Shown: positions 25,297 to 62,287 of the stretch, one piece after another
Numbering within the stretch: the stretch's first letter is position 1
Layout: each line of letters opens with the position of its first letter
Origin: Owenia fusiformis
Lineage: Eukaryota > Annelida > Polychaeta > Sabellida > Oweniidae
Assembly (NCBI GenBank): GCA_903813345.2
Contig: CAIIXF020000012.1
Span: 20,968,184-21,032,183, forward strand
DNA length: 64,000 bases
Direction of reading: 5' to 3'
Program-made: the position numbers and the translations under genes
Notes under the pieces: model-generated
What the model was told of the DNA's origin: nothing
The model's database searches: none
Seen by the model: the letters and a program-made list of their open reading frames with translations, nothing else

Positions 25297-26353
25297 ATGA
25301 ATGAATTGAACACAAGTGATGATACTAGCAGGAATGTAACTTTATCTGTATATAAGAGGGAGAATGAGTCCTCTGATGGCTCACACCATGAGAATGTATA
25401 TAAGAGGGAGAATGAGTCCTCTGATGGCTCACACCATGAGAATGTATATAAGAGGGAGAATGAGTCCTCTGATGGCTCACACCATGAGAATGTATATAAG
25501 AGGGAGAATGAGTCCTCTGATGGCTCACACCATGAGAATGTATATAAGAGGGAGAATGAGTCCTCTGATGGCTCACACCATGAGAATGTATATAAGAGGG
25601 AGAATGAGTCCTCTGATGGCTCACACCATGAGAATGAACAATTTATAGTTGAAAACAACTGTTATGAAGAGACAGATATGAAAAAAGTTGACAGGGAGGA
25701 TGATCATGAATCAGATAATCTTGGAAATGTCTTAATGAGATCCAGAGTGAAGCATTCACCTGGACATATGTCTGATAACAGGAAAACTTTAACAAATGTT
25801 AAAGGGAACAATGTCAAATGTGGAAACATGGACATGAATTCAAATGCTAAGAATGGCAATTTAAAGACAAGCATAGATATTGATGTGAAATCTGAAAATG
25901 TTTTGGAGTCTGTTGAAAACAATAATGACAGAGAAAGAAAGAACAGGAACCCTTCAGTAAAGTATGAGGATACTCCATTAGATGTCAATGATACATTAGC
26001 AGAAAATATAGATGATATGCAAATAAATGAAACAGTTTTAAAGGTTAACTATAAAGATACCCAAGGATCCAAAAGAGAATCTGATAACAATTCAGCCAAG
26101 ACAAACAACTCCAACAACATTCCTCCATACACACTCATTGATGATGTCATTCGTTCAGACAAAGCCATTCATGATCTCAAATACGATCCTTTAAGTATTA
26201 TTGATGCCCAAGGTGAATTAGGTGAAAGAATTGCTGAAATAGTTAATGCTAGTAGAATGCCTGTTTCCATAGAGAGGATCCCATCTCAAAGGCATAGTGC
26301 TGAACTTGTCTCAGACTGGTTGTTAAAGTTTCCTAAATGGCCATGTACTGATG
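25297..26353 (+). CDS. Exon 1 of the large gene: 16-residue repeats and acidic region
   Basis: The start is placed at ATG 25,297; an in-frame TGA lies about 66 bp upstream, so if this is the first coding exon this is its first Met (an upstream exon joined at an acceptor in between cannot be excluded). Residues 18-113 are six copies of VYKRENESSDGSHHEN. Residues about 114-270 are Asn/Asp/Glu/Lys-rich and look disordered. From about residue 271 the sequence (PPYTLIDDVIRSDKAIHDLK ... LVSDWLLKFPKWPCTD) is more hydrophobic and regular, like the start of a folded domain. The donor is GATG|GTAAGT, phase 1. Confidence 0.75.
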
Positions 26354-38300: not shown

Positions 38301-41300
38301 TACACTGTTTTACTGTATCATTCTTTTCTCATTAAAATGTTGGCATGCTGGTCTAAAAAGTTTGGCAAAATGTTTTCCTTGTTCTGAAAGAACAATTTAC
38401 GATTAAAAATTTCATTGAATTTTTCAGCATTTGATTCCCAAGCAGAGAATACCCTGAATGATCTCACTACCCCTGAAACCAGCCCAGAGTCTGCTAAACA
38501 ACATGCAAAGTCAAGAAAACTTACTAGTGAGAATGCAGGATCATCTAAACCAACCAATTCTACATATAGGTTAACCAAACAAAACAAAGCAAATAGCTCA
38601 CTGACCAATCAAAATGGAATTACTTCAAAATTGGCCATTCAGAATGGAGTTGACTCTCAATCATCCAACCAGAATGAAGGAAGGAATCACATTGATGGTG
38701 TAGATTCTATATTAGACAGGATAGATGAAGAGCTGTACTGTCTCATAGGAACTGAACCTGTACAGGTACAACCTTTTTAGAATCAGTTTGCTGATCAGTT
38801 TGCTGTGTGGTATGTCAGGTGGTTGGGGGCGGGTGGGTATCCTGATTAACCTTGTCTACATGTTTCCAGGCAAACTATTGTTAATCAATGTATATTTCCA
38901 GAAAACAGTTTGCTTGGAAAGATGAACAAACAAGATTTAAGGACAGGAAATCTCAAAAGCTGCCTTAAAGAATACCCAGCATGTCCAAAATTTGAGATTT
39001 TTAGGGATGTTTCTTTGTATGAAAATCTAAAAAGGAACCAATTTTGGACATTTCAATTACTCCATTACAATAACATATGACACCATATGATCATTGCCAA
39101 ACTTAGTAACCCTTCTTGATTCAAGAGTGCTTTTTTCACCCTGCATCTCATTGTCTTAATTGTATGCACATAGATTTTAAAAAATAAGAATGTATTATTA
39201 TCATGATGATGTTGTGATATCAGAAGCTCATGCTAATCCATGACTTGCAGATAGGATTGCACTTAAATTACAAATGAGCTGCTTAAATTTTATCGCTGTT
39301 TGTATAATTTGCTGACTACATATAGCTATTTTTACTTTATTACTTGTTACTTTAATCTATAATTTGCAATTTACAATCCTAACAAAATATGACAATAGAA
39401 CTAATGTTATTATGATGTGCAATGCATTTTGAATAAATGAATTTAAATATTAACATATTATATGTATGCGCTTCCTGGTTTCTGCTGGCCAAGATGTTTA
39501 TGTAATATTCAACAACATGTATATTTTATTTCACTAGAAATTACATGTATGTTCAGCAAATGAAGTGAAAATTAAACACAGTGAATATTATATCATACTG
39601 GTCCCATTGAAACCCTTAAAACGAGGCAGCGATTATATTGATTTTCAATCTAAAAAAAGCATTGTCGTACAATGTCTTCAATGATGGAATAAATCCAAAT
39701 TTAATTTATATTCTAGGAGGCTCCCTTAAAAATTAGCAAGCCAGTCAAGGTTAAGAAAAACGTTGCATTGTCTAAAACAGATAAGGACAGGTTGAAATCA
39801 CTTGGAGTTGAGTTTGATACTGGAGACAAAAAGAAAACTAAAAAATGTAAGTTTATTTATTATTTAAGGAATAAATAATGACAGGCCATTCAATATGGTG
39901 AAATCCAGCATGAGTTGGACAAAGCATGAACTGAAGGTGAGTGCATTTGCACTGACATTCTGTCCAACGAGTGTAGAATTTCACCATATTGAATGGCTTG
40001 TCATTATTTATTTCTAATCAAAAATAAAAAATGAAAACATTAATCCATAGTTAATCCTTGAAAATGGGGAATATCTTTTGGAATTATACGGTGTAATCTT
40101 ATAGTCAATAAAATGTTTTAAAGTGTATTGATGTTTTTTTAGATGAAAAATACAAGCAAATTGCATGAAAACCCCCCCAATTCATTCTACAAACAACTTG
40201 TGGTCCTTTGTATTCTCTCATGCCTTTAGGGATCCACAGCCAGTATTAAAAACAAATTGACTTTTACATTTAAAGTTATTCTCAACTAACCCATTGAGTA
40301 GAATGATAAAGCAGTTATACATGAGATGGCTCAAACTGATATGTTATTAAAAGTTAGTCTAATTCATATGAGCACTTCATAGCCATTTATCCCATTGATG
40401 TTAATTTAGAATACAAACACCCTTCTGATTGTAAAAAATCTTGTTAAACACAGATAAGGGGATATCTCTTTATATATTTTTCAAAGTGTATGTTGAAGTT
40501 TACCATTTGGTGTCATCTTACAAATTGCATTTCTATTTGATAACCACAAGTTAACAAATATGGATGTTTTATATAGAATGGAGGTGACATATTCAGAGGC
40601 AGAGAAGGGAAATAAAACATGTGAAGCTGAATAGTCTCAGAATTTATATAAGTAATAAGTAATCCAAGGCCAACAAACATTGAAAGTTGCTTTTTGAGGA
40701 AAAAATTATCAAAATCATTAGTTTTGATAATGTCAATATTATCAAAAATATTGCTAAAATATTTTTGGTCTTGGGCATATGACGTTTGGTTTCAATGTAT
40801 TTCCAAACATTTGCCAATATTCTGTTATAAATCAAGATCTCTGTTACACCATAATATATAAAAATTAGATTCGGGTCTATAGTTTTTGATTGTGACATTT
40901 TGAATACATTTGTAAAATCTTTATCCCGCGTTTATTATACAGGATTCAACCTTTTCTTGGGAGGACTTCCTGAAACAACTTCACCGTCTGTCATATCGGA
41001 TACAAATACTTTTTACTAAATTCCCGGGAATTAAGTGATGTGACGTCATTTTAATTGAATAAATAGTGGTATTCACTAAAAATGACATCATTGCCGGTGA
41101 ATACACAATTCACACGTTTTCTAAGCAGGGAGACATTGCAATACATGTACCTCTATATATTTTTAGTCACATGGTATCTAATTGACCAATGAGAGAACGA
41201 GTATCACGGCATGGAAATAATAGTACAATAACATCATATCTAAGGGCAATATAGTGAAATATTTGACCGAGGGCCGAAGGCCAAAGGTCCAATATTTCAC

Positions 41301-50300: not shown

Positions 50301-53300
50301 GAACTTAGCTTGAACATCAAATACTTTTGAGGAAGTTGAAATGTTGAAACTCGGATTATGTTTCTGTATTTTCAAATATTTTCCAACAACAGTAATAGGA
50401 CGTCAATAATTGTAAATGAATATTTATAAATTGGTGCATACAGTATATATACCATTTTCAAATAACATACTGTTAGAAATACTTGTTAATATTGAGTTAG
50501 TCAGAACCTGGATTTAACATAACTTAAGATAAGTTCATAAAAGTGTAGTCAGAAGATACCTGGATTTAAAGTTACTTGTAATAAGTTCATAAAAGTACAG
50601 TCAGAAAGTATCTGGATTTTATGTTACTCAGAATACTCATAAAAGTGTAGTCAGAAGATACCTGAATTTGGCATTAGAAGCTCGTAAATGTGTGGTCAGG
50701 AGTCACTTGAATCAAACATTACTAAATGAATTCTCATGAAAGTATTTGGATTTAATAATACTTGGAATATTCATAAAATATAGTCCTGTGGTACTCCTAG
50801 TTAATGTGGCAGTAAAATGGATTATTCGAATTGGACAATTGCTAGTTGGAGAAAACGGGCAGGTACTGTTTGTCATGTCCTCATTACATTTTCATGTTTG
50901 TTCAATTTATTTGCTATAGTTCTGATTTTTATTTCATATGTTTTTTTTTATTAATAACCTCATGATTTAATCTTTTTTGGCATTTTCAGGTCTTTGATAA
51001 ATGAACAACTTTTGTAGAAAATGACCATGCAGTCTGTTGTTGTATTATGTACAAATCAAGTAAACAAGTAAATTAATTAGGTTGATAGCTAATGAACATA
51101 GGATTGAAGATCAAAAAGAAAAATAATGCTTTACAAGCACCAATTTAATAGCTAGAAATCACGTCTTATTCAATAGAGGAGTTCCATATAGCTTTGAAAT
51201 CTTGCTAATTCTTGTTTTTTCATGAGATTTTAAGAGATTTGCACTTTTAACCTCTAACAACTAACCTTTCTTTCTTTTTAAAAGCATACTTGAATTCAGT
51301 GAAAAGTTTTCCACAATAATAACTTTGATTTGATTTATACAGTTATGTCATTTAATAATTATCCCATTGAACGAAATTTTATAGTAATTTAGGTACAATA
51401 TGTAAAACTGTAATAGGAATATGTTTTAAATGTAAAAAATTTATATAGTACATTAATAAAGCTAGATATGTAGGTATTTAAGAAGCAGATGGCAGCCATC
51501 TTGAAAAATGGCGGCCTTTTCTCGCTATTTTACGATTTTTGCTGTAACTCAAAAAGTAGTGGAGCGATTTTGTTCATATTTTGTATGTGAATAATATAAG
51601 CATGGCACACTGTCTTATGAAAAATATGCCATTTTAACATATTTTACTATAACTCGAAAAGTAGTGGAGTGATTTTCATATTTGGTATGGGAATACTATA
51701 AGCATGGCACACTGTCTAATGACACTTTTGGTAGAAGGTGGCCATTTTTGCTATATACTTTTTTGTATTGATGTGATGATGAAATTCTCTAACCTTGGTT
51801 TATTCGTGTGACAACCAGCAATTTCATGATTAATCACAATAGGCACATTCATACCATAGTATTTTATTTGAGTTTCAGACAGATTCAACCATAATCATAA
51901 ATCATTAAAAGTGACTTTTGCAAGTTTATAACATGGACAGCTATGGCAGTCTAGCCCAAGCAAAACGAAGAATGACAAGGGTGACATCTATTATGTCAGC
52001 TTTATTCAGCTATTTAGAAACTATACTATTAATCAATATTGATCCTCTGTCTATAATAATTTTTTCAAATCAGCTTACCCGTAGAAATTAGTAGAAGACC
52101 CCGAAATTGGCAGCAAAACTTAAGTAAAATTTGAAATTCAAAACTTTTTGAAGAGGGACTAAATCTGGATATATGACACGCCAAATTTTGTGATTCAAAC
52201 CAAATATAAACTTTCTGCAGTAAGCTTTATTTTATAATTTCAGTAATTTTGCAGACATTCATTGAATAATTTTCATGTTATCGAGATGTATCAAATAAAA
52301 AAAATATGACGTACCATGTCTACCACATGACCTTTGAACTATAGGAAATCTCCTTTTGCTCAAGAAGGAATTTTCAAGATGACTGCTAAATTCAAAATCG
52401 CCAACTTTTTTTCAGAGTGAATATAATTTCTGATATTGTATTCTCTCTAATAGACACACACCCTACTTTTTCATGAAATACTCTGGCAACTTGAGTGAAG
52501 AAATGATATACGATTTTGGTCTTTTAACAATGAACAGAACAAAAAATTTCGGTCATATTTTACGCCATAAATCATTAAATCCCGGTCTTTATTCTTTAAA
52601 TATTAAATAAATTACAGGGCCAACATTCCAACCAGGGAATGCCAAAAGTCCTACTGAAACAGAAGGTAAAGAAACAGGACTGGCCAGGATGCAAGAAGAA
52701 GATCTCAATGAAGCCGGCCAACAAATCAAAGCACTAACAAAAGATAAGAAGAGACTAAGCAATGATGGACCATCGGAGAACCCCAGTGAAGGTAGGATTT
52801 TTACTATATTTGTAAAAACACAAAGCCCAGTACGATAATAAGATGGTAGTTCAGGTAGTTCAACTTTGATTGTGAATATATCACTGTGGTGATAGTCAGC
52901 ACCTGACCTTTCTTGAACTTGCTGAAAGTATTTCACGATTAAGAAAGAAAAGTGCAATGTTGAAATGAACCAAAGTTATACCATTTTGTATGGCCATGAA
53001 ATGCCCAGATTAGTGTATAATTGGCACATAGGGATAGGGTTCTTTACTTTTGAAGATGCCAACGAAAATGCAATAACTGTCGACATCAAACGCTATGTTG
53101 TGATTCTCAGGAAGTTCTAGGGGGCTTTAGGTAAACTCAGGGGGAGGGGGGTGGATAGGCAGCAACAGTGGTTCAACAAGACAGAGCCATGTCCCATACA
53201 TCCAATGATGTACTGGAATGGCTTTGGGACCATGTCGATGACCACATTATCAGCAGGATAACAGATAATTAATAGGTGCCCCATAGTCCAGATATAGCCC

Positions 53301-56300
53301 CCATTTATCTTTAACCAGTGGGGATACCCCAAATATAGAGTGTAGGAGAATAACGGCAGAACATCATAAGACCTCAAAGTGAGATCACATGTGTCATTCA
53401 GGCCATACTTGCTTTGCAATGCAGTTAGATCATTGACAACTTTCGGAAAATGTGTGCAGGTTTGCCTACAGCATTATGTTGGCCAACTGGGGCACATTGT
53501 TTAAAGTACTGAAAATTGAGACTATCAGTCCAATGTTCATGAAATTAGCTGGATACAAAATTGAATGATGTGCAGATATGGGCAAAAACAGGGTTGCTGT
53601 TTTTTTGACCACCCTGTATTACAGACTCGCTTACACGTTTGATTTTCAAGTATGAAAAGTTCATACCTTGGTAATCCAAGATGGCTGTACTATTATAAAA
53701 CCATTAAGTATGTACCATAATATGTCAAACATCCCCAAAATTTGAGAAATTTAAACAGCTTCGCCTATTAGGATAATATCAACTCCAGTAGATGCTGATA
53801 CTAACTTATAATTATCCACCATTATTACCACCTTGCCGGGCCAGTTCTAGGGGTTTTAGTGCTAGTTTAGAAGGCATTCGCTTTACTATATCGACCTGAG
53901 CAATGTGTGACGTCATAGTGGTAGTCAATATGAACCGGTCTAGAATATATTCTGGACCGGCAATTTTCCCTGGGAAATTAGATATCGTTCAATGCGTAAG
54001 ATTTTCTTGCTGTTTCAGTCCTTGTCGTTAACGGTGGTAATAATACTAATAACGTCATTTCTGCGAGCAATAAATTTTTTATTGAAAGTTTAAATATTTC
54101 AAAGAACAACAGAATATTAAGGTTAAAAGAAAGACTAAAATGTTTTACTGAAAAATTACAAAATCCAAATATATAAGGATATGTGTACATGATCTAAAAT
54201 ATTCTTGATTTAGAACATCCATATATATTAATATTGTACAGTGATCTCTCACATATTTTTGTAAATTGTAATCCATGCCTTGTATATATGTTTATGAAAT
54301 AAAATTTATTTAAAAAAAAAAAAAATTTCTGCGAGCAATATAGTGAAATATTGATGTTATTGTACTATTAATGAAACGAGTCAATATGTATTATCCTAAA
54401 CAAGCTGTTTTCTTTAAAACCCTCTGATTTTGGATGATGTTTGAGCATTTTTCTGTCGTTGTTTACAATTAAAACTTAATTAGTTTGTATAATGATAGTA
54501 GAGAGAAGTAAGGCACATTTAGGCACATTTATTTATTTGTAGATGAAACTATAGAAGGGGAAGATGAGGAGGAAAACCACAGTGATCTAGATTCTGTGGC
54601 CGCTGAACTGCTGGAGGAAAAATTCATTGAAATTATGAATAAAAAACAAGGTATATTCATATTCAAACCAGGCCTTTTGTTTTGAATTTTTGAAATATTG
54701 CCCCTCAGGGACCTGACATTGCAAGCATGAATGATTTGTTTGTGTCTTGCCTGAGTGTGCATGATTTGCTCTTTTTAATTTTAGATCTTGACTGATGCAT
54801 CTTTTATTCTTGCTATGGATCATATTCTTTGAAGTGATATTATAGTCGTTTCTCTTACTAATGAGTTCTATGATATTAATTACTTCATATTACATTTTAT
54901 TACATAGTTTACATCTGCATGGCTTATTTTAAATAACTTATTTTGCATGGTTTATAATCACAATGACTAAATTAACCTTCAATCTGCATGCTTTTATTCA
55001 CTTAGGTGGCTACCTTAGGGACTTCAAGGCTAAGACTCCAGTTGATCTAGAGTCAGTGCGAACTGAGGACTTTGAGGCGCAGTTTAAAGACCATATGTTT
55101 CCTTCCATTAAAAATAGGGGTAAATTGTTCAACTTTTTGTTAAATCTCATCCACACTGGTATTTCGGGTCTGTGTTAAAACACTGATGTCTCTCATCACA
55201 TTTTAGGCCACTCCCTCCCTCTTTCCCTCTTTTCTTCTTTTACTGGAGGCATATGCAAGCATTACAGGAAATGGCCTCATCTATCTCAATATGTTATTAT
55301 AAGGACATTCCTTGCTTGACCATCCCTCCTGATATGGTATCTATAATCATATATATACTTTACATATTTAGCAAAACACGAAAAAATGTTATAAAACAGT
55401 CAATATTGATCATTTTTTAAAGATGTAGTGCTGATTTCCAGTGCCATCTTTTAAGATTTCATACAGGAACTCATGCCATTGACTCTCAACTTATAACTTT
55501 GCCTATAACAGTATAGGAAAGCACAGAATTTCTTCTAGACAAGTGGTCCAAACTTTCTGTGCAAAGATATTATCGGGGCTTGTCAACTTGGAATAAAAAG
55601 AGATTTTTAGAAGGATTAAATGAAAATAGACAATTCCTACTGGAATTGAGCACCACGTTTTTAAGTGATCAATATTGACCATATATGGAAACATTTTTCT
55701 GTGTTTTGCTAAACATGGAAAGTATTATATGATTTTGACTACCATATCTGGAGGGAAATGGTTTGACATTGACACATCAATGCTGCTATGATACTTTGCT
55801 TAATGACTGGTAGAGATAGAATTCTTCTTACATCAAAGTAATATATGTGTACCTATAGTTTGTAGTTATGGCCATTTTACAAAACATGCTCAAAATGCTG
55901 GTCTCGACTCTGGAGGCAAACTTGAATGCATCAGGTGAAGTTGTCCTTACTACACATTCACAGATATGTCTTCCTTCTAATCTCTTGTTTCAACTCTCTG
56001 ATGCTTTAATGGTTGTTAGTGTAGACATTGGATAGTTTAAGCTTGCTTTCTTCACAACGTAACTGTTTTTTTATAGATTAAATATATGTTTATGATTAGC
56101 CTAGAAAATAAGTTGCTTAAATGACTCCAAATAAATGTTGTCTTCATCCAAAACTTGAATTCTGATCTGCCAAATCTAATATTCCATATTTATGAGCAAC
56201 AGTGTAGTAATGTATAGCTCACATACAGAACAAGCGCTAATTAGTCTACTTCAGATACCCATTCAGCTTCAGAGTTCCGTGTTTAGAAAGCAAAATTCAA

Positions 56301-59300
56301 AATTTCGCATTGGTGTCAACAGGAATCATTAAAGTTGTGTCTATTGCAATACTGTGCTTGTAATCTTGATTTCTTTACAAAGTAAAATTCTTTCTGAAGA
56401 AGATGACGCTTGTCATGTATGTTTAATTATCCCATCGAACGAAGTTCGGAGGTATATAGGGAATGCCGTCCGTCCGTCTGTCCGGGCAATAATTCAAATA
56501 CAGTTGGCCCAATTTTGTTCATATTTTGTTCACATATGCTCTATGGGGGTAGAAGTTCTGCTTGAAAGCAGATTTTCAAAATGGCCACTCGTTTCAAAAT
56601 GGTGGCCATTTTAGTGCCGATTTTACAGTAATTTAGGTACAATATGTGAACCTGTAATAGGAATTTGATTAAATGTAAAAAATTATATAGGACATTTATA
56701 AAGCTAGAAATGTAGATATTAAAGAAGCTCATGGCAGCCATCTGGAAAAATGGCGGCCTTTCCGCACATTTTGTGATATTTGCTGTAACTCTAAAAGTAG
56801 TGGAGCGATTTTGTTCATATTTGGTATGTGAATACTATAAGCATGGCCAGTGTCAAATTACACTTTTGGTAGTAGGTTGCCATTTTGAAAAACGGCCACC
56901 ATTTTTACGTTTTTTACTATAACTCGAAAAGTAGTACAGCGATTTTGTTCATATTTGATATGTGAATACTATAAGCATGGCACATTGTCTAATGACACTA
57001 TAGGGAGTAGGCGCCAAATTTGAAAATGCCAGCCATGGCTGTTCGTTGGGATTTGCTACGCTTTGGCATTGCTGTTGTCTAGTTCTGACATCTTACCAAA
57101 TGAGCTTGTTAAAATATATATCAGAAAACCAGCTATAGAACTACCAATGACGTAGTAGATGTTGCATATCACATTCTGCGGAGTAGTCTTTTTAAGTGAA
57201 GAAGCTACATGTACAGTATTTGTATATGGGCGATTTATATGTATAAGTTGCTGTTTTGATTTACATACAAGCTTAAACTCTCCATTATCTTTGAAATAGC
57301 CACAAAGTAAAAATCTGGGGTTCATTCATATCAGGTAAGTTTGGCATGTTCTGCATTTGAAGCATGTTTTGTTAAATGGCCATGAGATTGCGACCATTGA
57401 GAAATGACTTAGTGGAATGAAAGAACATTGGTCAAGGTTCAATTGTTCCAAATATAATTTTAAACCCATGCTAGTTGACTGAGTTATTAGCATTTGTTTT
57501 AGTTACTTTTTTGGCTCACCTTGTATTTACAACAATAAAAGCACAACTGAATAAGATATTGCATGGGGCTTTCATTATCAGCAGGAAACCTTTGGTCAGA
57601 AATTCTAGAAAACCTTGGATATGACATGACAAGCATTTATCTAATGTTAATTAATCCCTTTATGCTTTCCAACTCTTGTGTTTGAATTAACCCCTTTGTG
57701 TCTGTAGATAAACTACATGCTAACCTTAGACTAAAGAGGAAAGACAGTGATATTGACTCCATTCCTACAGAGGACTTGGAGAAAGCCTACAGAGCATCAA
57801 TGATCTCACACATATTAGCACATAATACTCACGCCACAGGTACTTGTACACACCCTAATCATACCATAGAATAGAGAAGGCATGTCTTGATTTTCTTCAT
57901 ATTTGCTAGAAAGATTAATATTGCTGCTACTTTAAAGATGGCAGGAATTTTTAGTTTTTTCCATATCCAAAGTAATAAGTATTACAAAGTGTCCCTCAAG
58001 TATGGGACACCCCTAGGCAAACATATACCAAAGTCTCCATAGTATGTGTCATATATTATTTTAAGGCTTATTATGTCACCTCCAAAATGTGGTGACATAT
58101 TGTTATGTCACCTCCAAAAAGTGGTGACATATTGTTATGGTCTCCGTTTTTTTTTTTTGGTGATTGGCGCCTGTAACAAATTCTTAAAACTTTCAAAAAC
58201 TTAACAAATACTGTTTAGACTGACTTCAATTTTTTTCAAAATCATCTACATGTTTTCAGAAGTTCAAATCTGACTTTATATTCAAGATTTGACCTTCAAT
58301 GACCTTTTCAAGGTCAAAAAAGGTCAAAAAGGTATTTTTTCAACTTGCTTTGAATTGACCAATTTTTTTTTCAAAATCATCTACTAGTTATCAGAAGTTC
58401 AAATCTGACTTTAGATTTGAGATTTGACCTTCAATGACCTTTTCAAGGTCAAAAAAGGTCCAAAAGGTATTTTTTCATCTTGCTTCAAATTGACCACTTT
58501 TTTTCAAAATCATCTACATGTTCTCAGAACACCCTGTAATATTTGAAATTTTGCAGCCCAACCGACCCCCATGGGATGTATATGGGTCAAGAAAACAGAA
58601 TTTTATTTATTTAGATCTCTGAGGTTTGGGACCAAAGATTAATGATTATATAAGGCTGCATAATCAGGATTATGCGCTTTCATTTTGTAACATTATCTCA
58701 TGGTTACGTAATAGCCGTCTTCCCATGCCAAAAAAGTTATGTAAAATATTTTATATTTATATAATAAATTCTATAAAAGCTCACACGTGTTTTTTGGTAT
58801 TACTGGCACATTAGTCAGAAAAATATCCATTTCACATTTTGTACATGTTTTTTAGGCTTTTTCAGATCTCAACGATGTATATATATATATCTTTTATTGA
58901 CTCTCTGATGTCATTGCAATGACATATTAGTCACTACAAACTACAATATACAAAATTAAACTAAGACTAAACTAACTACTTCATAGGAAATATACAAAGT
59001 TGTAAAATACAATTACAGCATCACAAGATGTAAAATACAAAAATATGAGAGAGTTGTAAAATACAGATACAACATGACAGAATTTAAAACATCAGTGTGA
59101 TGTATAACTTTCCTATGAATAATTTCTTTGTTCAGATTTGCGATTCCACCTTGCTCCTCACATTTTCTTGATTCACCACTCAACATGCCATGTGTTTTTG
59201 CAAACTAATAAATTTAAAAGCCTTGATCAAACCATCTCATTTTGTTGTAGAACTATCTCCACTTGCAAGGAGACTTCTCCGGAAGGCAGAAACAGAGTCT

Positions 59301-62287
59301 ATAAAAACAGAAGATTTTGGTAGGAAATTTCGTCAAGAGCTTATACCAAAAGTCAAAGGTACTTTTTCTCCTGATATATTATCATTCCCTTTATCATAGT
59401 TTTTGTGTGAATTATTGAATGTTTCCATTTGTTTTTTTTGTTGAGTTTGATACACCTACTGTCTATTTTGCTGAAATGTCATTGTGGTCATACTTTAAAA
59501 ATCAAAAAAGAGTGGAATTAGCAAGGAACAAAGCAATAGGCATGAAGTGAAAGCTTCTAATGTAGAGTAATGTTTGAAATTAGGCAGTTCATCCTAATTT
59601 TAGAGGGTGTGGAATAGGGCATGACCTTGACTGACATTTAAAGCAAAATTTTTATGTTGCAGTTCATTCCCGTTTTTGTTATGTCACCACCAAGAAGTGG
59701 TGACATATTGTTATAATCTCCGTTTTTTGTGGTGGCGGTTGGTGGTTTGCGGTTGGTGATCGGCGGGTGGCATTTGGGGTCTGTAACAAAGAAGGTGAGA
59801 AAGCATCGCAATAGATTTCGGTAGTGTTGTCGCGATTAATCGATACATCGCAATAAACATCGCGATATACATCGCCAAAGCTGGTTCTGGCGATGCATCG
59901 ATGTCTGAAACAAAACATCGATGTTTTTAAAAAATTTTAATTTGCTAAAAATCGCCCTTTCTTATCTTATTTTGACGCAAATTGCTTACCTTTTTTCATG
60001 TCTTATTTCATTTTCAAATGTTTTCTGATATTCTTTCGCTTTAAAACTGTTTTAGCTAGTCGAAATGAACCATTAACCAAAGAAAAATTACTTTACTTTC
60101 ATTTCACCGTTACTATGTTCCCAGATGTACCAGCGTACTCTTATTAATTTATTCTGTTCGATATTTTAGTGCATTAGCGTTCGGTATTTCAGTGCACTTT
60201 TCTCGAACTTTTTCTCGATGTACATCCCCGTGTACATCGCAATGTGCATCGATGTTTACTACTGAAAATTGCCGATGCATCGATGTACGATTATGGCACA
60301 TCTGGCATTTGGGGTCTGTAACAAAGAAGGTGAGAAAGCATCGCAACAGATTTCGGACAGTCATATGTTGGATTTTGGCCATTCTCTGAGGATTTAAACA
60401 GGTGCATGTTAGATCAATGCATTACCTCCTGGAAAAGCACTCATAGAGATGATAAAATAATTTCGACTTTGAGAGAGGGAAGATGCAAATAACCCACCCA
60501 CATGTTTTTTTTCTGAAATGTTGTTCTGATTTTCAACCCCTTCCTTGCTTTTTAATTTTTGTTTCATCAATATGTTGCGTTTTGACACACAGTTATCCCC
60601 TTTAAAAGAATAAGTGATTCCTTCGGGGGTTTTAAAGATATCCATTATGGGTGACCAAAATTAGCGAAGCAATGGATCGCATGAGTTTTCCCTATGGGAA
60701 AAATAACATGGGAAATATTGTTTTCCACTTTATCTTAAAGGAATCACATATTCCTTTAAAGGGATTAACTGTGTGTCAAAACACAACATATTGATGCAAG
60801 AAAAATTAGGGGTGGAAGGGGGTGAAAATCAGGAAAACAATTAAAAAAAACACATGGGTTGGTTGTTTGCATCTTCCCTGTCTCGAAGACGAAATTATTT
60901 TATCATCTCTAGGAGTGATTTTCCTGGAGGTAATGCATTGATGTAACATATGCACCTGTTTAAATCCTCAGAAAAAAGCCTAAAACCAACACAAGCCTGT
61001 CCAAAATCTGTTGCTATACTTTCCCTCCTCCTCTAAAACCTCAATAACTTAACAAATACTGTTTAGACGGACTTCAATTTTTTGAGAATATCTTCATTCC
61101 TTTCTGGATCCTTTGGAGGATTTATAGTATTTCAAAATGTTGCTTTGTTATTCTCCGTTTCATGTTAGATGTCTCTCACACAATATTTACAGATTTTGAC
61201 TCTGAATCTATTGTGACGGAAGATTATGAGAATAAATTTCAGAAAACTTGCATCCATCACACCCAATTACAAGGTGCCAGTGAATTTTGCAGTGCATGTT
61301 CTCATGATTTTTAAAGTTTAGAATATAAAATTGATTTATGATTAAATTAATAAGGAATTGATTATTAACATAACATGGCTCGATCAATCTATAACTCTAA
61401 CAGTATCGGCTTATTGCACCACATTCGCAACTTTTTATGCCACCACAAAGAAGTAGTGAAATATTGTTATAATCACTGTTTTCATTTCCATTATTAAATG
61501 TAAAAATTTATAATAAAAACTTCTGGGGAAAACAATTTGTTTATTTTAATAATACAATAATAATACCATACAATTCTGTGACAAGCAAACATGATTTGTA
61601 TACTTTAACACATTCTCAACACATCCTACAAATGGAACTGGATGATGTAAAAATGGAACTGGATGACGTACATTGTCCAATTAAAATTAATTTCTCTAAA
61701 TTCTTCCATTTATTTTGGAAACTGAAGTGCCTGGATGAGTTATAATGATTTTATTAAAAAAAAACAATTTTTTCAAGAAATTGTCGTGCTTTCTAGATGA
61801 GTTGAGAAGTTTTATATTGTGTTCAGAAACGCAGCATGGGTGTTGTTTCTGTGAGATAGAAAGGCTCATATTCTGTCAAAATGTTGAAGTAAATGAGTAT
61901 TTACAAACTTGGCAGCAAAAGCACATCGTCCAGTTCCGTTTGACAAAAGTTTGGGAACCAAATTTTGTATTCCTGATAGTAACCTTTTGACTTTAATGTT
62001 TTGTGATATCATGTAGTAATACATTTACAGAGTTACTATAGTATTGTGTTGAGGTTTGCTTGAATTAAATCTTGTATTCTTGATTCAAGGTACTAGTATC
62101 GTTTTAATTTTTATGCTTTGTTGGATTTGTGTTTTGATTTAATTTGTTTTATTTTGTTTGTAACTAATAGGTGGCATCACACCACGATCTCAGAAAACAG
62201 ATTTTGATCTAGAGTCCATCCAAACTGAAGATTTTGAGCAGAAATTCAAAGAATGTCTACTTCGAAACAATAATAATAAAAATACAG
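25297..62287 (+). CDS. Large multi-exon gene (13 exons assembled), protein with 16-residue and exon-encoded repeats; unrecognised
   Basis: Coding exons join as 25297-26353, 26783-26920, 32928-33013, 33231-33309, 38428-38765, 39717-39846, 52618-52791, 54543-54650, 55006-55119, 57708-57839, 59251-59358, 61193-61273 and 62171-62287. All junctions obey GT-AG and the reading frame stays open for 887 codons. Twelve of the 13 donors are followed by an acceptor of matching phase within the window, and all twelve match. The protein is hydrophilic and mostly acidic, with no signal peptide or membrane segment visible. It has an N-terminal 16-residue repeat (6 copies), a more compact region across exons 1-3, acidic and lysine-rich middle segments, and six copies of a 14-residue motif, one per exon. 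I do not recognise a family. Intervening symmetric phase-1 exons could be missing, especially in the long introns of 6.0, 5.1 and 12.8 kb. Confidence 0.72.
25348..25635 (+). repeat. Six identical 48-bp in-frame repeats
   Basis: Each unit begins GTATATAAGAGGGAGAATGA and ends CACCATGAGAAT. All six copies appear base-identical, including synonymous sites, so homogenisation is recent. The unit length is a multiple of three, which keeps all frames open and yields shadow frames on both strands. Confidence 0.97.
26387..26755 (+). repeat. AAAATGGCC/TCCGTCCGTC repeat family, intron 1 copy
   Basis: It begins near TATGTCCGGGCAAGAACTCA, continues through TTTCAAAATGGCCACCATCT and ends in TTGTTCATATTTGATATGTG. 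It is a diverged relative of the fuller copy at 56,423-57,085. Confidence 0.75.
26783..26920 (+). CDS. Exon 2 of the large gene
   Basis: Two AG dinucleotides lie four bases apart (TTTATCAG|GTAG|TTG). Only the downstream one (exon start 26,783) keeps the frame from exon 1; the upstream one meets TGA after seven codons. The product reads VVPLIGELSHLREAGSDDFD, then ESDLLLTHCFTFALSDAHVK and NHLFTA. Hydrophobic residues are regularly spaced, as in a helical folded domain continuing from the end of exon 1. Donor GCAG|GTGTTG, phase 1. Confidence 0.7.
26978..27251. mobile_element. 274-bp piggyBac-like MITE flanked by TTAA
   Basis: TTAA at 26,974-26,977 and at 27,252-27,255 flank termini AGGCCCCATATAAAGTTCAA and its imperfect complement (AGTCCCCATATAAGTTTGAA). 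TTAA target duplication is characteristic of piggyBac-type transposition. No coding capacity. A related fragment lies at 24,118-24,185. Confidence 0.8.
27256..27820. other. Intron 2 sequence, nothing identified
   Basis: AT-rich intronic DNA with no credible exon or repeat beyond ordinary low complexity. Confidence 0.5.
27825..28282. repeat. GC-richer block of AAGC(TTTGTTACG)CTT-like motifs with a hairpin
   Basis: The motifs AAGCTTTGTTACGCTTTGAT, TACGCTTTGGGTCAAGCTTT and related words recur through 28,030-28,270, and AAAGCGTC/GAAGCGTGTC words through the first half. A hairpin at about 28,137-28,181 pairs GAGCGCCCAAAATTTTTAAA with TTTAAATTTTTTGGCGCTC. The block stands out from the AT-rich intron and directly abuts the duplicated segment at 28,283. 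It may be the body of a transposable element, possibly an LTR-type repeat, but I cannot prove this. Confidence 0.5.
28283..28550 (+). repeat. 268-bp dispersed repeat, copy A (second copy 34,721-34,989)
   Basis: The segment from TAAAGGGTGACGCATATCGT to GGAAAAATTGGC matches 34,721-34,989 with only a few differences (for example AGCATAAGTCTATTATAGAT versus ACCATAAGTATATTATAGAT). It contains a TATA-like word in GTTTAGTATAAAAGGCCCGA and a box-B-like word in CACAGGTTCGAGGTCG. Sequence outside the 268 bp is unrelated, so it is a mobile unit or solo LTR-like segment. Both copies are on the plus strand. Confidence 0.85.
28551..29860. other. Intron 2 sequence, nothing identified
   Basis: One 81-codon frame (28,997-29,242) has no recognisable features. 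GGTCAGTCTTTT/GGTCGGTCTTTTACC words repeat at 28,850-28,960 and may mark a small dispersed repeat. Confidence 0.45.
29861..30031 (-). mobile_element. MITE of the CAGTAAAACC...GTGAACACC family, intron 2
   Basis: The reverse complement reads ACAGTAAAAGTTGTCTTAGT, then GAACACCTCTCTCTAGTGAA, and ends GGTGTTTACTATAGGTCAGT. It corresponds block by block to the plus-strand copy at 49,267-49,445. Confidence 0.8.
30040..31500. other. Intron 2 sequence, nothing identified
   Basis: AT-rich. The frames at 30,366-30,596 and 31,173-31,358 show no family features. Confidence 0.45.
31515..31600 (+). repeat. Possible tRNA-derived SINE fragment
   Basis: AGGAGGTTGTGGGCTTCATT followed by CCCACC resembles the anticodon-stem to T-loop part of a tRNA-derived SINE (box B consensus GGTTCGANTCC, here GGCTTCATTCC). 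The following GGTGGAGTGACTTTTGTACC is non-tRNA tail. The box A region is not clear, so this is a decayed piece at best. Confidence 0.4.
32002..32212. mobile_element. About 210-bp MITE with GCCCGTAGCCAG ends
   Basis: The left end GGCCCGTAGCCAGGTGGGGG and right end GCTGGCTATGGGCTTG are inverted repeats with one mismatch over 12 bases. The interior pairs GGGTTCGATTTGATCGAGTG and AATTGAACCCCCCTGGAATT. There is no coding content. Confidence 0.75.
32928..33013 (+). CDS. Exon 3 of the large gene
   Basis: Acceptor GCGATTGCAG|ATG, phase 1 in; donor CATCAG|GTATAT, phase 0 out. It encodes DVNERDKAAGDCFAANDERY then IEGQLKKHQ. The charged helical character and shortness suggest the end of the compact region begun in exon 1. 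A fragment of the AAAATGGCC repeat family lies about 200 bp upstream (32,670-32,765). Confidence 0.65.
33231..33309 (+). CDS. Exon 4 of the large gene: short acidic exon
   Basis: Acceptor TTGAACAAG|GTGG, phase 0 in; donor ACAG|GTATGA, phase 1 out. The product VESEAMEECMADGEWSEESE then SDESNT is strongly acidic and serine-rich, with potential casein-kinase-2-type sites (inference). The polypyrimidine tract is a T/G-rich run (TGTTGTTTTTTGTTTTTG). Confidence 0.62.
33325..33950 (+). repeat. AAAATGGCC/TCCGTCCGTC repeat family, intron 4 copy
   Basis: It runs from ATGCCCTATGGGGGTAGAAG through several copies of the internal unit TTGTTCATATTTGATATGTG/TATAACTCGAAAAGTAGT to CAAAATGGCCACCATTTACC. The internal unit is itself repeated four times at about 80-190-bp spacing. 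Confidence 0.85.
33990..34720. other. Intron 4 sequence with an isolated mariner-like end and a promoter-like patch
   Basis: ACACAGGGTGTTTCATAAGA at 33,985 resembles a Tc1/mariner terminus but I found no matching opposite end. At 34,465-34,600 GTCCAATCAGAAGC, AATGACGTATG and a following ATGGCATCGCTAG look promoter-like, yet the open frame stops after about 15 codons. Neither can be called. Confidence 0.3.
34721..34989 (+). repeat. 268-bp dispersed repeat, copy B
   Basis: Near-identical to 28,283-28,550, see that entry. Here the flanks are unrelated and the AAGCTTTG-rich block is absent, which defines the unit boundaries at TAAAGGGTGACGC and GGAAAAATTGGC. Confidence 0.85.
35530..35841 (+). 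repeat. Tandem duplication, about 155-bp unit, two copies
   Basis: TTTATTCAATAGGGCTTCTT to GCTATGAGTATCAGAATG occurs at 35,533 and again at 35,686. The copies differ by a small insertion (CAAAATGTG versus CAAATTTATGTG). The terminal word AGATGCTATGAGTATCAGAA also occurs alone at about 45,788. The 72-codon frame starting at 35,396 runs into the first copy and is not recognised. Confidence 0.9.
36269..37656. mobile_element. 1,388-bp TA-flanked element of the CAGTAAAACC family
   Basis: It starts CAGTAAAACCTGTGTATAGT and ends in the complement of CAGTAAAACCTGTGTTAGTG, with TA on both sides (36,267-36,268; 37,657-37,658). GTGAACATTTTTTTGCCG and GTAGGTGTTCACTA blocks follow inside each end (36,290-36,345; 37,505-37,640), giving terminal repeats well over 60 bp. 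The interior has no recognisable transposase. The short MITEs at 29,861, 44,253 and 49,267 share its ends and are probably internally deleted relatives. Confidence 0.8.
37660..38425. other. Intron 4 sequence, nothing identified
   Basis: No exon or full repeat is recognisable. TGTACACTGTTTTACTGTAT near 38,297 is a solitary end of the CAGTAAAACC family. Confidence 0.45.
38428..38765 (+). CDS. Exon 5 of the large gene: Ser/Asn/Gln-rich
   Basis: Acceptor AATTTTTCAG|CATTTG, phase 1 in; donor GTACAG|GTACAA, phase 0 out. The product starts AFDSQAENTLNDLTTPETSP. It then has a loose 12-14-residue repetition of the type (L/I)T(N/K)QNG: LTKQNKANSSLTNQNGITSK, LAIQNGVDSQSSNQNE. It ends DGVDSILDRIDEELYCLIG. 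That last segment resembles the ESIxTEDFE motif of the downstream exons in its DSI and hydrophobic spacing (tentative). The body is probably disordered. Confidence 0.72.
39717..39846 (+). CDS. Exon 6 of the large gene: lysine-rich
   Basis: Acceptor TTATATTCTAG|GAGG, phase 0 in; donor AAAAT|GTAAGT, phase 1 out. It encodes EAPLKISKPVKVKKNVALSK, TDKDRLKSLGVEFDTGDKKK, TKK. The strong basic character contrasts with its acidic neighbours and could serve nucleic-acid, lipid or intramolecular binding (inference only). Confidence 0.68.
39868..40018. repeat. Fold-back MITE just downstream of exon 6
   Basis: AATAAATAATGACAGGCCAT with TCAATATGGTGAAATCCAGC on the left is complementary to GAATTTCACCATATTGAATG with GCTTGTCATTATTTATTTC on the right. 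Arms are about 65 bp and the loop about 20 bp. It begins 22 bases after the splice donor. Confidence 0.88.
40020..41220. other. Intron 6 sequence, no exon identified
   Basis: The frame at 40,644-40,898 (minus) is unrecognised and AT-rich. A small hairpin (ATTATCAAAATCATTAGTTT) lies near 40,705. Confidence 0.45.
41222..41560 (+). mobile_element. Dispersed inverted-repeat element, copy on plus strand
   Basis: It starts with a hairpin (GGGCAATATAGTGAAATATT and AATATTTCACTATATTGCTC around GGGCCGAAGGCC). It then passes CGTTAACGACCAGGACTGAA and AATATATTCTAGACCGGTCC, and ends at ACTGGCCCAGCAAGGTGGTA. The reverse complement of 53,815-54,068 (continuing at 54,325) matches it along its length. Confidence 0.8.
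41562..42515. other. Intron 6 sequence, no exon identified
   Basis: The minus-strand frame at 41,896-42,225 (109 codons) has no recognisable motif and no supporting splice sites that I trust. Confidence 0.4.
42522..42590 (+). repeat. Dispersed repeat (AGCAAGGAGTAAA family), copy 2
   Basis: AAATAGAGTGACAAAAAGTG followed by GAATTAGCAAGGAGTAA; same family as 25,138, 49,727 and 59,478. Confidence 0.75.
42951..43390 (+). mobile_element. 440-bp inverted-repeat element, plus-strand copy
   Basis: The ends AACGCAAATGCGAGTAGGTA and TTCTACTCGCATCTAGTCTA and the interior match the reverse complement of 20,092-20,572. Confidence 0.8.
43395..44250. other. Intron 6 sequence, nothing identified
   Basis: AT-rich DNA without credible exon, repeat or RNA gene. 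Confidence 0.45.
44253..44407 (+). mobile_element. 155-bp MITE, CAGTAAAACC family, TA-flanked
   Basis: It starts CAGTAAAACCTGTCATAGTG and ends in CTCAGGTTTTCTG, with TA on both sides (44,251-44,252; 44,408-44,409). GAACACCTCTCTTGTAGACA and CTCTGTAGTGAACACTTACC match the copy at 49,267. Confidence 0.85.
44985..45185 (+). repeat. 3' part of the AAAATGGCC/TCCGTCCGTC repeat family
   Basis: TATGCTGATACCTTAGGGAC and GGAATTTGCTACTCCGTGGA followed by GTTGCTGTTTTCTAG match the 3' end seen at 20,850 and 57,040. Confidence 0.75.
45190..46270. other. Intron 6 sequence, nothing identified
   Basis: The only marked feature is AAGATGCTATGAGTATCAGA at 45,787, a word shared with the tandem duplication at 35,530-35,841. 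Confidence 0.45.
46278..46500. repeat. Likely MITE fragment with an internal hairpin
   Basis: GGCATGGGCGTAGCAAGC resembles the terminus of a widespread invertebrate MITE type. At 46,380-46,437 CCCTGGGAACATGTATAAAA pairs with ATTTTTATATTTGTTCCCAG. I could not find a matching right terminus. Confidence 0.5.
46505..47940. other. Intron 6 sequence, nothing on the plus strand
   Basis: No exon or repeat was recognised. On the minus strand an AATAAA word (TTTATT at about 47,845) lies about 100 bp beyond the stop of the antisense exon candidate at 47,949. Confidence 0.4.
47949..48165 (-). CDS. Candidate antisense terminal exon, product unrecognised
   Basis: On the minus strand a strong acceptor (TACTATTTTTTTAACAG) precedes 72 open codons ending in TGA at 47,949. 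The segment is GC-richer than the surrounding intron and its peptide has balanced composition (GAGELRVFNEFSLQCHNDQW, NSHGAPVTIQRGYAIDLLRG, QFKNTASVNPSVDSYLFPIS). A polyadenylation-type AATAAA lies about 100 bp downstream. I could not find a partner exon upstream at higher coordinates and do not recognise the peptide. It may be the last exon of a gene nested in intron 6, or a relic of a retroposed or transposed gene. Confidence 0.4.
48437..48800 (+). repeat. AAAATGGCC/TCCGTCCGTC repeat family, intron 6 copy
   Basis: GAGAAGCCATCCATCTAATA, GTGTGTCCGGACAATAACTC, TTTCAAAATGGCCACCATTT and GATGCTGATGCCTGGGGACA follow the family order. Confidence 0.75.
49267..49445 (+). mobile_element. 179-bp MITE, CAGTAAAACC...GTGAACACC family
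   Basis: The termini CAGTAAAACCTGTTTTAGTG and the complement CAGTAAAACCTGTGTACAGT are inverted repeats. The interior is made of GTGAACACCTCTC/GTAGTGAACACC words. TA follows the right end; the left flank is TT, so one side of the duplication may have mutated. Confidence 0.85.
49450..50490. other. Intron 6 sequence with one dispersed-repeat copy
   Basis: At 49,727-49,795 AAAATGCAAAAAGGAGTGAA and ACAAGCAAGGAGTAAAAT form copy 3 of the AGCAAGGAGTAAA family. Otherwise nothing is identified; the open frames around 50,067-50,375 are AT-rich shadows. Confidence 0.5.
50496..50790. repeat. Degenerate minisatellite, about 58-bp unit
   Basis: CATAAAAGTGTAGTCAGAAG followed by ATACCTGGATTTAAAGTTAC recurs at least four times with drift in both length and sequence. 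Confidence 0.8.
51385..51765 (+). repeat. AAAATGGCC/TCCGTCCGTC repeat family, second intron 6 copy
   Basis: TTTAGGTACAATATGTAAAA, CAGCCATCTTGAAAAATGGC, TTGCTGTAACTCAAAAAGTA and GCATGGCACACTGTCTAATG occur in the same order as at 56,630-57,000. The 5' end with the TCCGTCCG tract is missing. Confidence 0.82.
51770..52615. other. Intron 6 sequence upstream of exon 7, nothing identified
   Basis: CTTTTGCTCAAGAAGGAATT and TTTCAAGATGACTGCTAAAT near 52,350 may be another strongly diverged piece of the AAAATGGCC family. Confidence 0.4.
52618..52791 (+). CDS. Exon 7 of the large gene
   Basis: Acceptor TAAATTACAG|GGCC, phase 1 in; donor GTGAAG|GTAGGA, phase 1 out. It encodes PTFQPGNAKSPTETEGKETG, LARMQEEDLNEAGQQIKALT, KDKKRLSNDGPSENPSE. 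The MQEEDLNEAGQQI segment may be a degenerate relative of the 14-residue motif in the next six exons, and it is the first exon of the phase 1-1 series. Confidence 0.7.
53010..53625 (+). pseudogene. Dead Tc1/mariner-type transposase relic with 3' terminal repeat
   Basis: Reading across frames, 53,030-53,115 gives FFTFEDANENAITVDIKRYV then VILRKF, and 53,155-53,205 gives a WFNKTEPCPIH-type segment where mariner elements have W-F-Q-Q-D-G-A-x-x-H. From 53,197 follow DVLEWLWDHVDDHIISRITD and, after stops, PHSPDIAPIYL in the position of the W-P-x-x-S-P-D-L-x-P-x-D signature. Many stops and shifts make it non-functional, and the catalytic aspartates are not all preserved. GTTTTTTTGACCACCCTGTA at 53,603-53,622 looks like the right terminal repeat; no left end was found. 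It sits in intron 7. Confidence 0.75.
53815..54068 (-). mobile_element. Dispersed inverted-repeat element, minus-strand copy, split by a retroposed insert
   Basis: The reverse complement matches 41,222-41,560. Landmarks are ACCACCTTGCCGGGCCAGTT, GAACCGGTCTAGAATATATT and TTGTCGTTAACGGTGGTAAT. The match resumes at 54,325-54,362 (GCGAGCAATATAGTGAAATA) after the insert at 54,073-54,325. Confidence 0.82.
54073..54325 (+). mobile_element. Poly(A)-tailed retroposed insert with 16-bp target-site duplication
   Basis: The 253-bp insert ends in GAAATAAAATTTATTT followed by 14 A residues. It is flanked by ATTTCTGCGAGCAATA on both sides (54,057-54,072 and 54,325-54,340; one A is shared with the tail). 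The polyadenylation signal, tail and long target duplication are hallmarks of LINE-mediated target-primed reverse transcription. The body has no coding sequence I recognise, so it could be a 5'-truncated LINE 3' untranslated region or a processed transcript fragment. Confidence 0.9.
54543..54650 (+). CDS. Exon 8 of the large gene: repeat-motif exon 1
   Basis: Acceptor TTATTTGTAG|ATG, phase 1; donor ACAAG|GTATAT, phase 1. It encodes DETIEGEDEEENHSDLDSVA, AELLEEKFIEIMNKKQ. The 14-residue motif here is DLDSVAAELLEEKF, the most diverged of the six clear copies (A-E-L-L in place of T-E-D-F). The preceding acidic run is unique to this exon. Confidence 0.72.
54660..55000. other. Intron 8, no feature seen
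   Basis: A short AT-rich intron with no repeat recognised. Confidence 0.5.
55006..55119 (+). CDS. Exon 9 of the large gene: repeat-motif exon 2
   Basis: Acceptor ATTCACTTAG|GTGG, phase 1; donor TAGGG|GTAAAT, phase 1. It encodes GGYLRDFKAKTPVDLESVRT, EDFEAQFKDHMFPSIKNR. The motif DLESVRTEDFEAQF fits the consensus fully. The basic tail SIKNR parallels PKVK at the end of exon 11. Confidence 0.78.
55319..55762. mobile_element. 444-bp fold-back element in intron 9
   Basis: CCATCCCTCCTGATATGGTA at the left mirrors TACCATATCTGGAGGGAAAT at the right. Pairing continues inward through TTTAGCAAAACACGAAAAAA and GTCAATATTGATCA on the left (to about 55,422), matched from about 55,665 on the right. Arms are about 100 bp, imperfect. 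The 63-codon minus frame inside is not a gene. Confidence 0.8.
55765..56420. other. Intron 9 sequence, nothing identified
   Basis: No exon with the motif series and no clear repeat was found in this part. Confidence 0.45.
56423..57085 (+). mobile_element. Most complete copy of the AAAATGGCC/TCCGTCCGTC repeat family
   Basis: The 5' end TAATTATCCCATCGAACGAA and the complement of the 3' end (GTAGCAAATCCCAACGAACA) form short imperfect inverted repeats. It proceeds through GCCGTCCGTCCGTCTGTCCG, several NAAAATGGCCxCCATTTT palindromes and two to three units of TTGTTCATATTTGATATGTG, and ends TTGCTGTTGTCTAGTTC. No coding capacity. Fragments lie in most introns of the large gene and upstream of it. 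Confidence 0.8.
57090..57700. other. Intron 9 sequence, nothing identified
   Basis: AT-rich intronic DNA; the minus frame at 57,056-57,325 overlaps the repeat end and is not recognised. Confidence 0.45.
57708..57839 (+). CDS. Exon 10 of the large gene: repeat-motif exon 3
   Basis: Acceptor TTGTGTCTGTAG|ATA, phase 1; donor CACAG|GTACTT, phase 1. It encodes DKLHANLRLKRKDSDIDSIP, TEDLEKAYRASMISHILAHN, THAT. The motif is DIDSIPTEDLEKAY. It is the longest exon of the series because of the extra C-terminal segment. Confidence 0.77.
58068..58145 (+). repeat. Tandem pair of a TATGTCACC(T)CC...GGTGACATA hairpin
   Basis: TTATGTCACCTCCAAAATGT followed by GGTGACATATTG occurs twice in a row (about 58,072 and 58,107); each unit is a hairpin. 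A single variant (CACCACCAAGAAGTGGTGAC) is at 59,681-59,715, marking the start of the composite element there. A related CACCACAAAGAAGTAGTG lies at 61,440. Confidence 0.8.
58196..58520 (+). repeat. About 134-bp tandem repeat with AGGTCA-like direct repeats
   Basis: TCAAAATCATCTACATGTTT, AGAAGTTCAAATCTGACTTT and TTCAAGGTCAAAAAAGGTC recur at 58,236, 58,371 and (partial) 58,504. AACAAATACTGTTTAGACTG at its left also occurs at about 61,053 after the fold-back element, so this unit belongs to the same composite transposon family. Confidence 0.8.
59251..59358 (+). CDS. Exon 11 of the large gene: repeat-motif exon 4
   Basis: Acceptor TTTTGTTGTAG|AACT, phase 1; donor TCAAAG|GTACTT, phase 1. It encodes ELSPLARRLLRKAETESIKT, EDFGRKFRQELIPKVK. 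The motif is ETESIKTEDFGRKF (Glu at the first position). The leading ARRLLRK is basic, as is the leading LRLKRK of exon 10. Confidence 0.77.
59478..59540 (+). repeat. Dispersed repeat (AGCAAGGAGTAAA family), copy 4
   Basis: AAAAGAGTGGAATTAGCAAG followed by GAACAAAGCAAT; same family as 25,138, 42,522 and 49,727. Confidence 0.7.
59681..61045. mobile_element. Composite fold-back element in intron 11
   Basis: A left arm of about 310 bp (60,340-60,655) is mirrored by a right arm (60,720-61,030): TTAGATCAATGCATTACCTC pairs with GAGGTAATGCATTGATGTAA, and GAGGATTTAAACAGGTGC with GCACCTGTTTAAATCCTC. The centre is GATATCCATTATGGGTGACC and TAACATGGGAAATATTGTTT. The same family, with most of one arm missing, is at 14,088-14,605. 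A 482-bp insert lies near its left end. Confidence 0.82.
59822..60303. mobile_element. 482-bp insert with CATCGATG-rich inverted ends, bracketed by 53-bp direct repeats
   Basis: It starts TAGTGTTGTCGCGATTAATC then GATACATCGCAATAAACATC, and ends CCGATGCATCGATGTACGAT then TATGGCACATCT. The ends are imperfect inverted repeats, and ATCGATGT words dominate both. The TAGTGTTG start is reminiscent of hAT-type ends. The host sequence GGCATTTGGGGTCTGTAACA ... GATTTCGG (53 bp) is present on both sides (59,769-59,821 and 60,304-60,356) with one mismatch. Confidence 0.7.
61193..61273 (+). CDS. Exon 12 of the large gene: repeat-motif exon 5
   Basis: Acceptor CAATATTTACAG|ATTT, phase 1; donor TACAAG|GTGCCA, phase 1. 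It encodes DFDSESIVTEDYENKFQKTC, IHHTQLQ. The motif is DSESIVTEDYENKF. At 81 bp it is the shortest motif exon and carries almost nothing but the motif. Confidence 0.72.
61290..62160. other. Intron 12, nothing identified
   Basis: The repeated phrase AAATGGAACTGGATGA(C/T)GTA occurs twice near 61,630-61,675. The 81-codon frame at 61,745-61,990 lacks suitable splice sites and is not part of the motif series. Confidence 0.4.
62171..62287 (+). CDS. Exon 13 of the large gene: repeat-motif exon 6
   Basis: Acceptor TAACTAATAG|GTGG, phase 1; donor TACAG|GTACAT, phase 1. It encodes GGITPRSQKTDFDLESIQTE, DFEQKFKECLLRNNNNKNT. The motif DLESIQTEDFEQKF is closest to that of exon 9 (DLESVRTEDFEAQF), and both exons open with Gly-Gly. 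The open phase-1 donor shows the gene continues. Confidence 0.78.

Follow-up and report, generated by a model that had tools for sequence, protein, structure and literature searches.

One short motif in each of seven successive exons of an Owenia fusiformis gene: a possible docking array built by exon duplication

The stretch of Owenia fusiformis DNA analysed here (64,000 nucleotides, G000:C12:20968184-21032183; hereafter the window) carries part of a gene in which, according to a model assembled by hand, seven successive exons each contain one copy of the same short peptide motif. Six copies lie in the window and the seventh, at 64649 (L003:649), lies 649 bp beyond its end, in the exon following exon 13. 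Our tentative reading, to which we give a little less than an even chance, is that exon duplication built a seven-copy array of short, putative docking motifs in a presumably mostly disordered part of a large protein.

The motif and its exons

An earlier note on this DNA had proposed six exons between 54543 and 62287, each 81–132 bp long, bounded by phase 1 on both sides and encoding one copy of a motif. Exons 8–13 were re-derived from splice borders and reading frame and checked by script: all six peptides are present, AG/GT borders are found in six of six, the lengths and phases hold throughout and every length is divisible by three. The search for further motif exons downstream, which the note had suggested, was extended over the next 60 kb and then 30 kb further, and found exon 14 with its copy (Table 1). 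The motif exons are symmetric (1-1) in six of seven cases, exon 14 being 1-0 in the hand model. Eight successive phase-1 junctions have a frequency of 0.0004 under an assumed 45/30/25 phase mix; permutation of the 16 junction phases found in this gene, however, gives 0.187, and such a run is not rare because 12 of the 16 are phase 1. Coding bias, measured with a codon table taken from exon 1 and the large downstream exon, is clear in exon 8 and modest in the other motif exons: a coding score threshold of 12 was exceeded by exons 8 and 11 but by none of the other four in the window.

Table 1. Exons of the hand-made gene model and the large exon farther downstream, with the motif copy that each contains
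Feature	Position	Strand	Length (bp)	Phase in	Phase out	Motif copy	Copy position	Basis or remark
Exon 1	25297..26353	+			1			From first ATG of open frame; open frame and donor
Exon 2	32928..33013	+		1	0			Splice borders and frame
Exon 3	33231..33309	+		0	1			Splice borders and frame
Exon 5	38428..38765	+		1	0			Exon scan
Exon 6	39717..39846	+		0	1			Top-scoring phase-0 candidate in the interval from exon 5 to exon 7
Exon 7	52618..52791	+		1	1			Exon scan; acceptor 52618 or 52636, scores equal
Exon 8	54543..54650	+	108	1	1	DLDSVAAELLEEKF	54584-54625	Most diverged copy
Exon 9	55006..55119	+	114	1	1	DLESVRTEDFEAQF	55044-55085	
Exon 10	57708..57839	+	132	1	1	DIDSIPTEDLEKAY	57749-57790	
Exon 11	59251..59358	+	108	1	1	ETESIKTEDFGRKF	59289-59330	
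Exon 12	61193..61273	+	81	1	1	DSESIVTEDYENKF	61198-61239	
Exon 13	62171..62287	+	117	1	1	DLESIQTEDFEQKF	62206-62247	
Exon 14	L003:554-711			1	0	DPDSVKTEDFERDF		Past window end
Exon 15	L003:1645-1759							After exon 14
Exon 16	L003:3338-3448							After exon 15
Exon 17	L003:4859-4997				2			Strong donor CAA|GTAAGT, score 5.4
Large downstream exon	L006:758-7355 (94758-101355 in continued coordinates)			2				Open up to ~2,200 codons

The motif as it had been written, D-x-[DE]-S-[IV]-x-T-E-D-F, fits literally only two of the six window copies (exons 9 and 13) and three of the seven overall. The 14 residues first assigned to it stand as a shared core, but the likeness runs on to residue 19, giving a motif some 19 residues long: D-x-[DE]-S-[IV]-x-T-E-D-F-E-x-K-F-x-x-x-[LM]-[IVL]. 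Every copy has S4, E8 and an acidic residue at position 1, and six have threonine at position 7. Positions 5, 10, 14 and 18 are hydrophobic in all seven (position 18 being M, L or C), and position 19 is so in six.

These copies stand apart from the surrounding DNA. When 124 kb were scanned on both strands with a matrix built from the six window copies, the seven came out at the top (35.8–50.3), the next match scoring 24.5. Under leave-one-out scoring of 154 kb (124,643 stop-free 14-mers), exons 8–14 scored 29.3, 42.3, 35.3, 37.0, 39.7, 46.2 and 40.8, and the best non-copies 24.5–28.2: all seven exceed every other stop-free 14-mer, exon 8 narrowly (29.3 vs 28.2). The exon 8 copy, which is without T7 and D9, would be marginal judged by its sequence alone and is counted as a member by its place in the series.

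Agreement among the copies at codon positions 1, 2 and 3 is 69.4, 75.2 and 35.7%, figures to be read with the fact that the copies were selected by peptide likeness, which alone lowers third-position identity relative to positions 1 and 2. It appears to be the peptide, not the DNA, that has been kept among the copies, and the picture is one of old duplications. Some cores can still be aligned as DNA (all E below 0.01): the core of exon 13 matches those of exon 9 (78% over 49 bp), exon 12 (76% over 51 bp) and exon 11 (85% over 26 bp). The remaining matches under this limit fall in intron flanks or represent a flank shared by exons 8 and 9.

The earlier proposal of exon duplication is supported by the presence of one motif per exon in an unbroken series with predominantly symmetric phases. 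It is supported further because the motif begins at a similar place in most of the exons (41, 38, 41, 38, 5, 35 and 95 bp from the start of exons 8–14, that is, within 35–41 bp in five of seven) and because third codon positions are 36% alike. The related suggestion of older, decayed copies fared otherwise. Ten exons were compared with 2000 shuffles each, the counts being uncorrected for exon number; for exon 8, the positive control, no shuffle scored as high. The supposed copies at the end of exon 5 (DSILDRIDEELY) and in exon 7 are unsupported, 804 and 796 shuffles scoring as high. No decayed copy rises above shuffles in exons 1, 2, 3 and 6 (934, 1491, 1932 and 971 as high) or in exons 16 and 17 (1464 and 476). 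Among exons 15–17 a signal appears in exon 15 alone, and it is weak (25 of 2000 shuffles as high, uncorrected).

Interpretation and rival explanations

AlphaFold2, run on the peptide of exon 13 with an alignment of the remaining five window copies, predicts a single helix at residues 21–34 of the peptide, beginning at motif residue F10 (mean pLDDT 74.9, pTM 0.34, blocks 67/81/88/61). The motif can be outlined as a predicted helix with two mostly aromatic anchors, preceded by an acidic arm and an S-[IV]-x-T stretch; the hydrophobic moment of the helical part is not above permutation (joint 0.141), so that by this measure the helix is not significantly amphipathic. Judged by exon lengths the units are spaced at 27–44 residues, and the linkers between the motifs are of unequal length and do not align to each other, which would favor separate sites over a stacked repeat.

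On our reading, a single small phase-1 exon was duplicated again and again, which would have produced seven copies of a putative docking motif of ~19 residues, in a region of a large protein that is presumed to be mostly disordered. Each copy would begin with an extended, acidic arm (D-x-[DE]-S-[IV]-x-T), after which comes a short helix (E-D-F-E-x-K-F-x-x-x-[LM]-[IVL]) that probably becomes ordered upon partner binding. The array could therefore hold several partners simultaneously, and since six exons are symmetric, skipping or duplicating one of them could change the number of sites without loss of frame. A repeated short binding element, as the earlier note had proposed, is the likeliest reading of the motif. 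Binding, multivalency, splicing control and the join to the large downstream exon are all matters that we infer.

Such arrays are known as a kind. The KNL1 MELT repeats and the Sfi1 centrin-binding repeats likewise consist of many diverged copies of a short motif with unlike linkers between them, and both arrays, on scaffold proteins, are read as multivalent docking. Their motifs are not known to resemble the present one in sequence, and the present array differs in that each copy occupies its own small exon, symmetric in phase 1 in six of seven cases. Should orthologues keep the motif, this would be a countable array with valency set exon by exon, in which the link between splicing and binding strength could be studied by experiment; should the motif be confined to one lineage, it would be a case of ordinary exon duplication in a scaffold protein.

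The observations bear on four other explanations, taken here in falling order of probability. If the array were controlled by phosphorylation, the working positions would be S4 and T7, which have acidic surroundings and a spacing of three residues, and the aromatics would contact a kinase or reader. The acidic first position and S4, kept in all seven copies, and T7, kept in six, agree with this; the acidic residue, which precedes S4 by three positions, may suit a casein-kinase-1-like priming relay. Phosphorylation by itself leaves the hydrophobicity of positions 10, 14, 18 and 19 unexplained, and we regard the explanation as unlikely. Somewhat more doubtful is the notion that exon duplication left the copies as passive relics, alike through shared ancestry and slow drift and without binding function. 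That exon 8 has diverged, that exon 15 is perhaps further decayed and that no partner or relative is known would all accord with it; yet third codon positions are 36% alike against 69% and 75% at the first and second, and the linkers of the same exons do not align, whereas drift would not spare the motif alone.

A helical solenoid or coiled coil formed by stacked units, with the motif serving as structural glue and not as a ligand-binding site, could draw on the helix predicted in the unit and on the coiled-coil-like open stretches far downstream. The range of unit lengths (27 to 44 residues), the unalignable linkers and the failure of the motif copies to match any Pfam family argue against stacking, which we consider quite improbable. 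That the exons are chance open frames and not a gene at all is very improbable: coding bias is modest in most motif exons and the gene is known here from DNA sequence alone, but seven copies, their order, frames and splice borders, and the codon pattern speak against it.

Searches for relatives

The motif was sought elsewhere in the 498-Mb genome assembly (525 contigs), and the hand-joined protein found no paralogue there: its matches are its own exons only (17 of 17). A degenerate DNA pattern that fits five of the seven copies gave 25 genome matches, of which five fall in this gene inside a 10-kb span and form the sole cluster; the other 20 are scattered, 11 (by hand count) being near-identical copies of one repeat, and the reversed pattern, as control, gave five. 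A 24-residue consensus recovered from the genome only three of the seven known copies and nothing else, so that distant paralogues may escape it; a search with the exon 9 peptide recovered two of seven, again a limited reach.

No Pfam family matched above its cut-off when exons 1–17 (without exon 4), the large downstream exon, coiled-coil pieces from farther downstream and the motif copies were searched, the result for one coiled-coil piece covering the best 25 of 31 families. A match of CALCOCO1 to a piece from ~138.6 kb (2e-05, 24.1 bits against a cut-off of 36) was taken as coiled-coil noise. Searches of the PDB gave nothing convincing. An immunoglobulin variable domain (2znw), in which NSVETEDFGMYF resembles motif residues 3–14, was taken as a chance match (domain E-value 16, whole-sequence 0.12). 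Literature searches with motif strings found no paper, and one combining exon duplication with short linear motifs listed none on the present array. The statement that the motif belongs to no known family therefore holds for Pfam, PDB and the literature as searched, and the motif is unnamed in the profile libraries searched. FFAT, AKAP, LC8, B56 LxxIxE, MIM1, calmodulin 1-5-10, MELT and AP2 appendage motifs were considered and set aside, their spacing or charge seeming a poor match. Outside the motif, the tail of exon 1 gave 163 pattern matches in bacterial/archaeal contigs and nine in viral contigs, with no relative at E 1e-3.

The gene around the motif exons

Exon 1 has a coding score of 127, obtained with a codon table trained partly on exon 1 itself. 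The exon scan gave no convincing candidate for an exon 4; joined directly, exons 3 and 5 are in phase. Within exon 1, at 25347-25636, a 48-bp unit is repeated in tandem without mismatch (6.0 copies, 100% match); the repeat is in frame and encodes six identical 16-residue units, and it is probably recent and perhaps variable in length. The fold predicted for the tail of the exon (mean pLDDT 52.6) is too low in confidence for use. The minus strand is open and codon-biased at 18150-18275 (KMDKTSKEKEFEYDSYSQFREEIEKLL...), where a neighboring gene may have an exon.

At the other end, the motif exons may make up the N-terminal region of a gene that continues into the large downstream exon, because the donor of exon 17 and the acceptor at 94758, which opens the next strongly coding exon, are both read in phase 2. 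Two observations allow other arrangements: another open stretch, which has an ATG at 83699, likewise reaches a GT in phase 2 and may be an alternative start; an in-frame TAA directly follows the exon 17 donor, and the gene may stop there.

The large exon contains EDVLANLGF..FLPERFL once and TFEEVESLD[LF]G twice, which to us are reminiscent of ITPRID proteins. The former resembles EEVLINLGF..KLPERFL in the genome's own PF14722 (KRAP_IP3R_bind) gene on contig C7, PF14722 being the IP3-receptor-binding core of the ITPRID/KRAP proteins, a group that is considered here together with TESPA1 and whose members would be expected to bind the IP3 receptor and actin. The alignment of the two spans 27 columns, six of them gaps, at 48% identity and a weak E of 0.051. 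PF14722 itself was reported neither in the large exon (E up to 1) nor in its NLGF segment (E up to 10), and a genome search with it gave a sole match, on C7, and none at the present locus (one candidate scored). The likeness to the ITPRID/KRAP core is a weak lead, not family membership. On the most far-reaching reading, the gene would be a scaffold of ITPRID type, long and divergent, and the motif a helical docking element not described before; through splicing, its seven copies, mostly in skippable exons, would tune the number of partners held beside an IP3-receptor-binding segment. We consider this full version improbable.

The PF14722 match on C7 (L012; G000:C7:29263221-29269388) scores 50.3 bits, over the cut-off, and the open frame of that gene runs into a low-complexity stretch rich in Asn, Asp and Gly. 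Beyond the large exon, a series of coiled-coil-like open stretches follows on the same strand from 109183 to 148975 in continued coordinates (L007–L011). It is broken at ~129.6–133.5 kb by open frames that look, by eye, like those of a retrotransposon.
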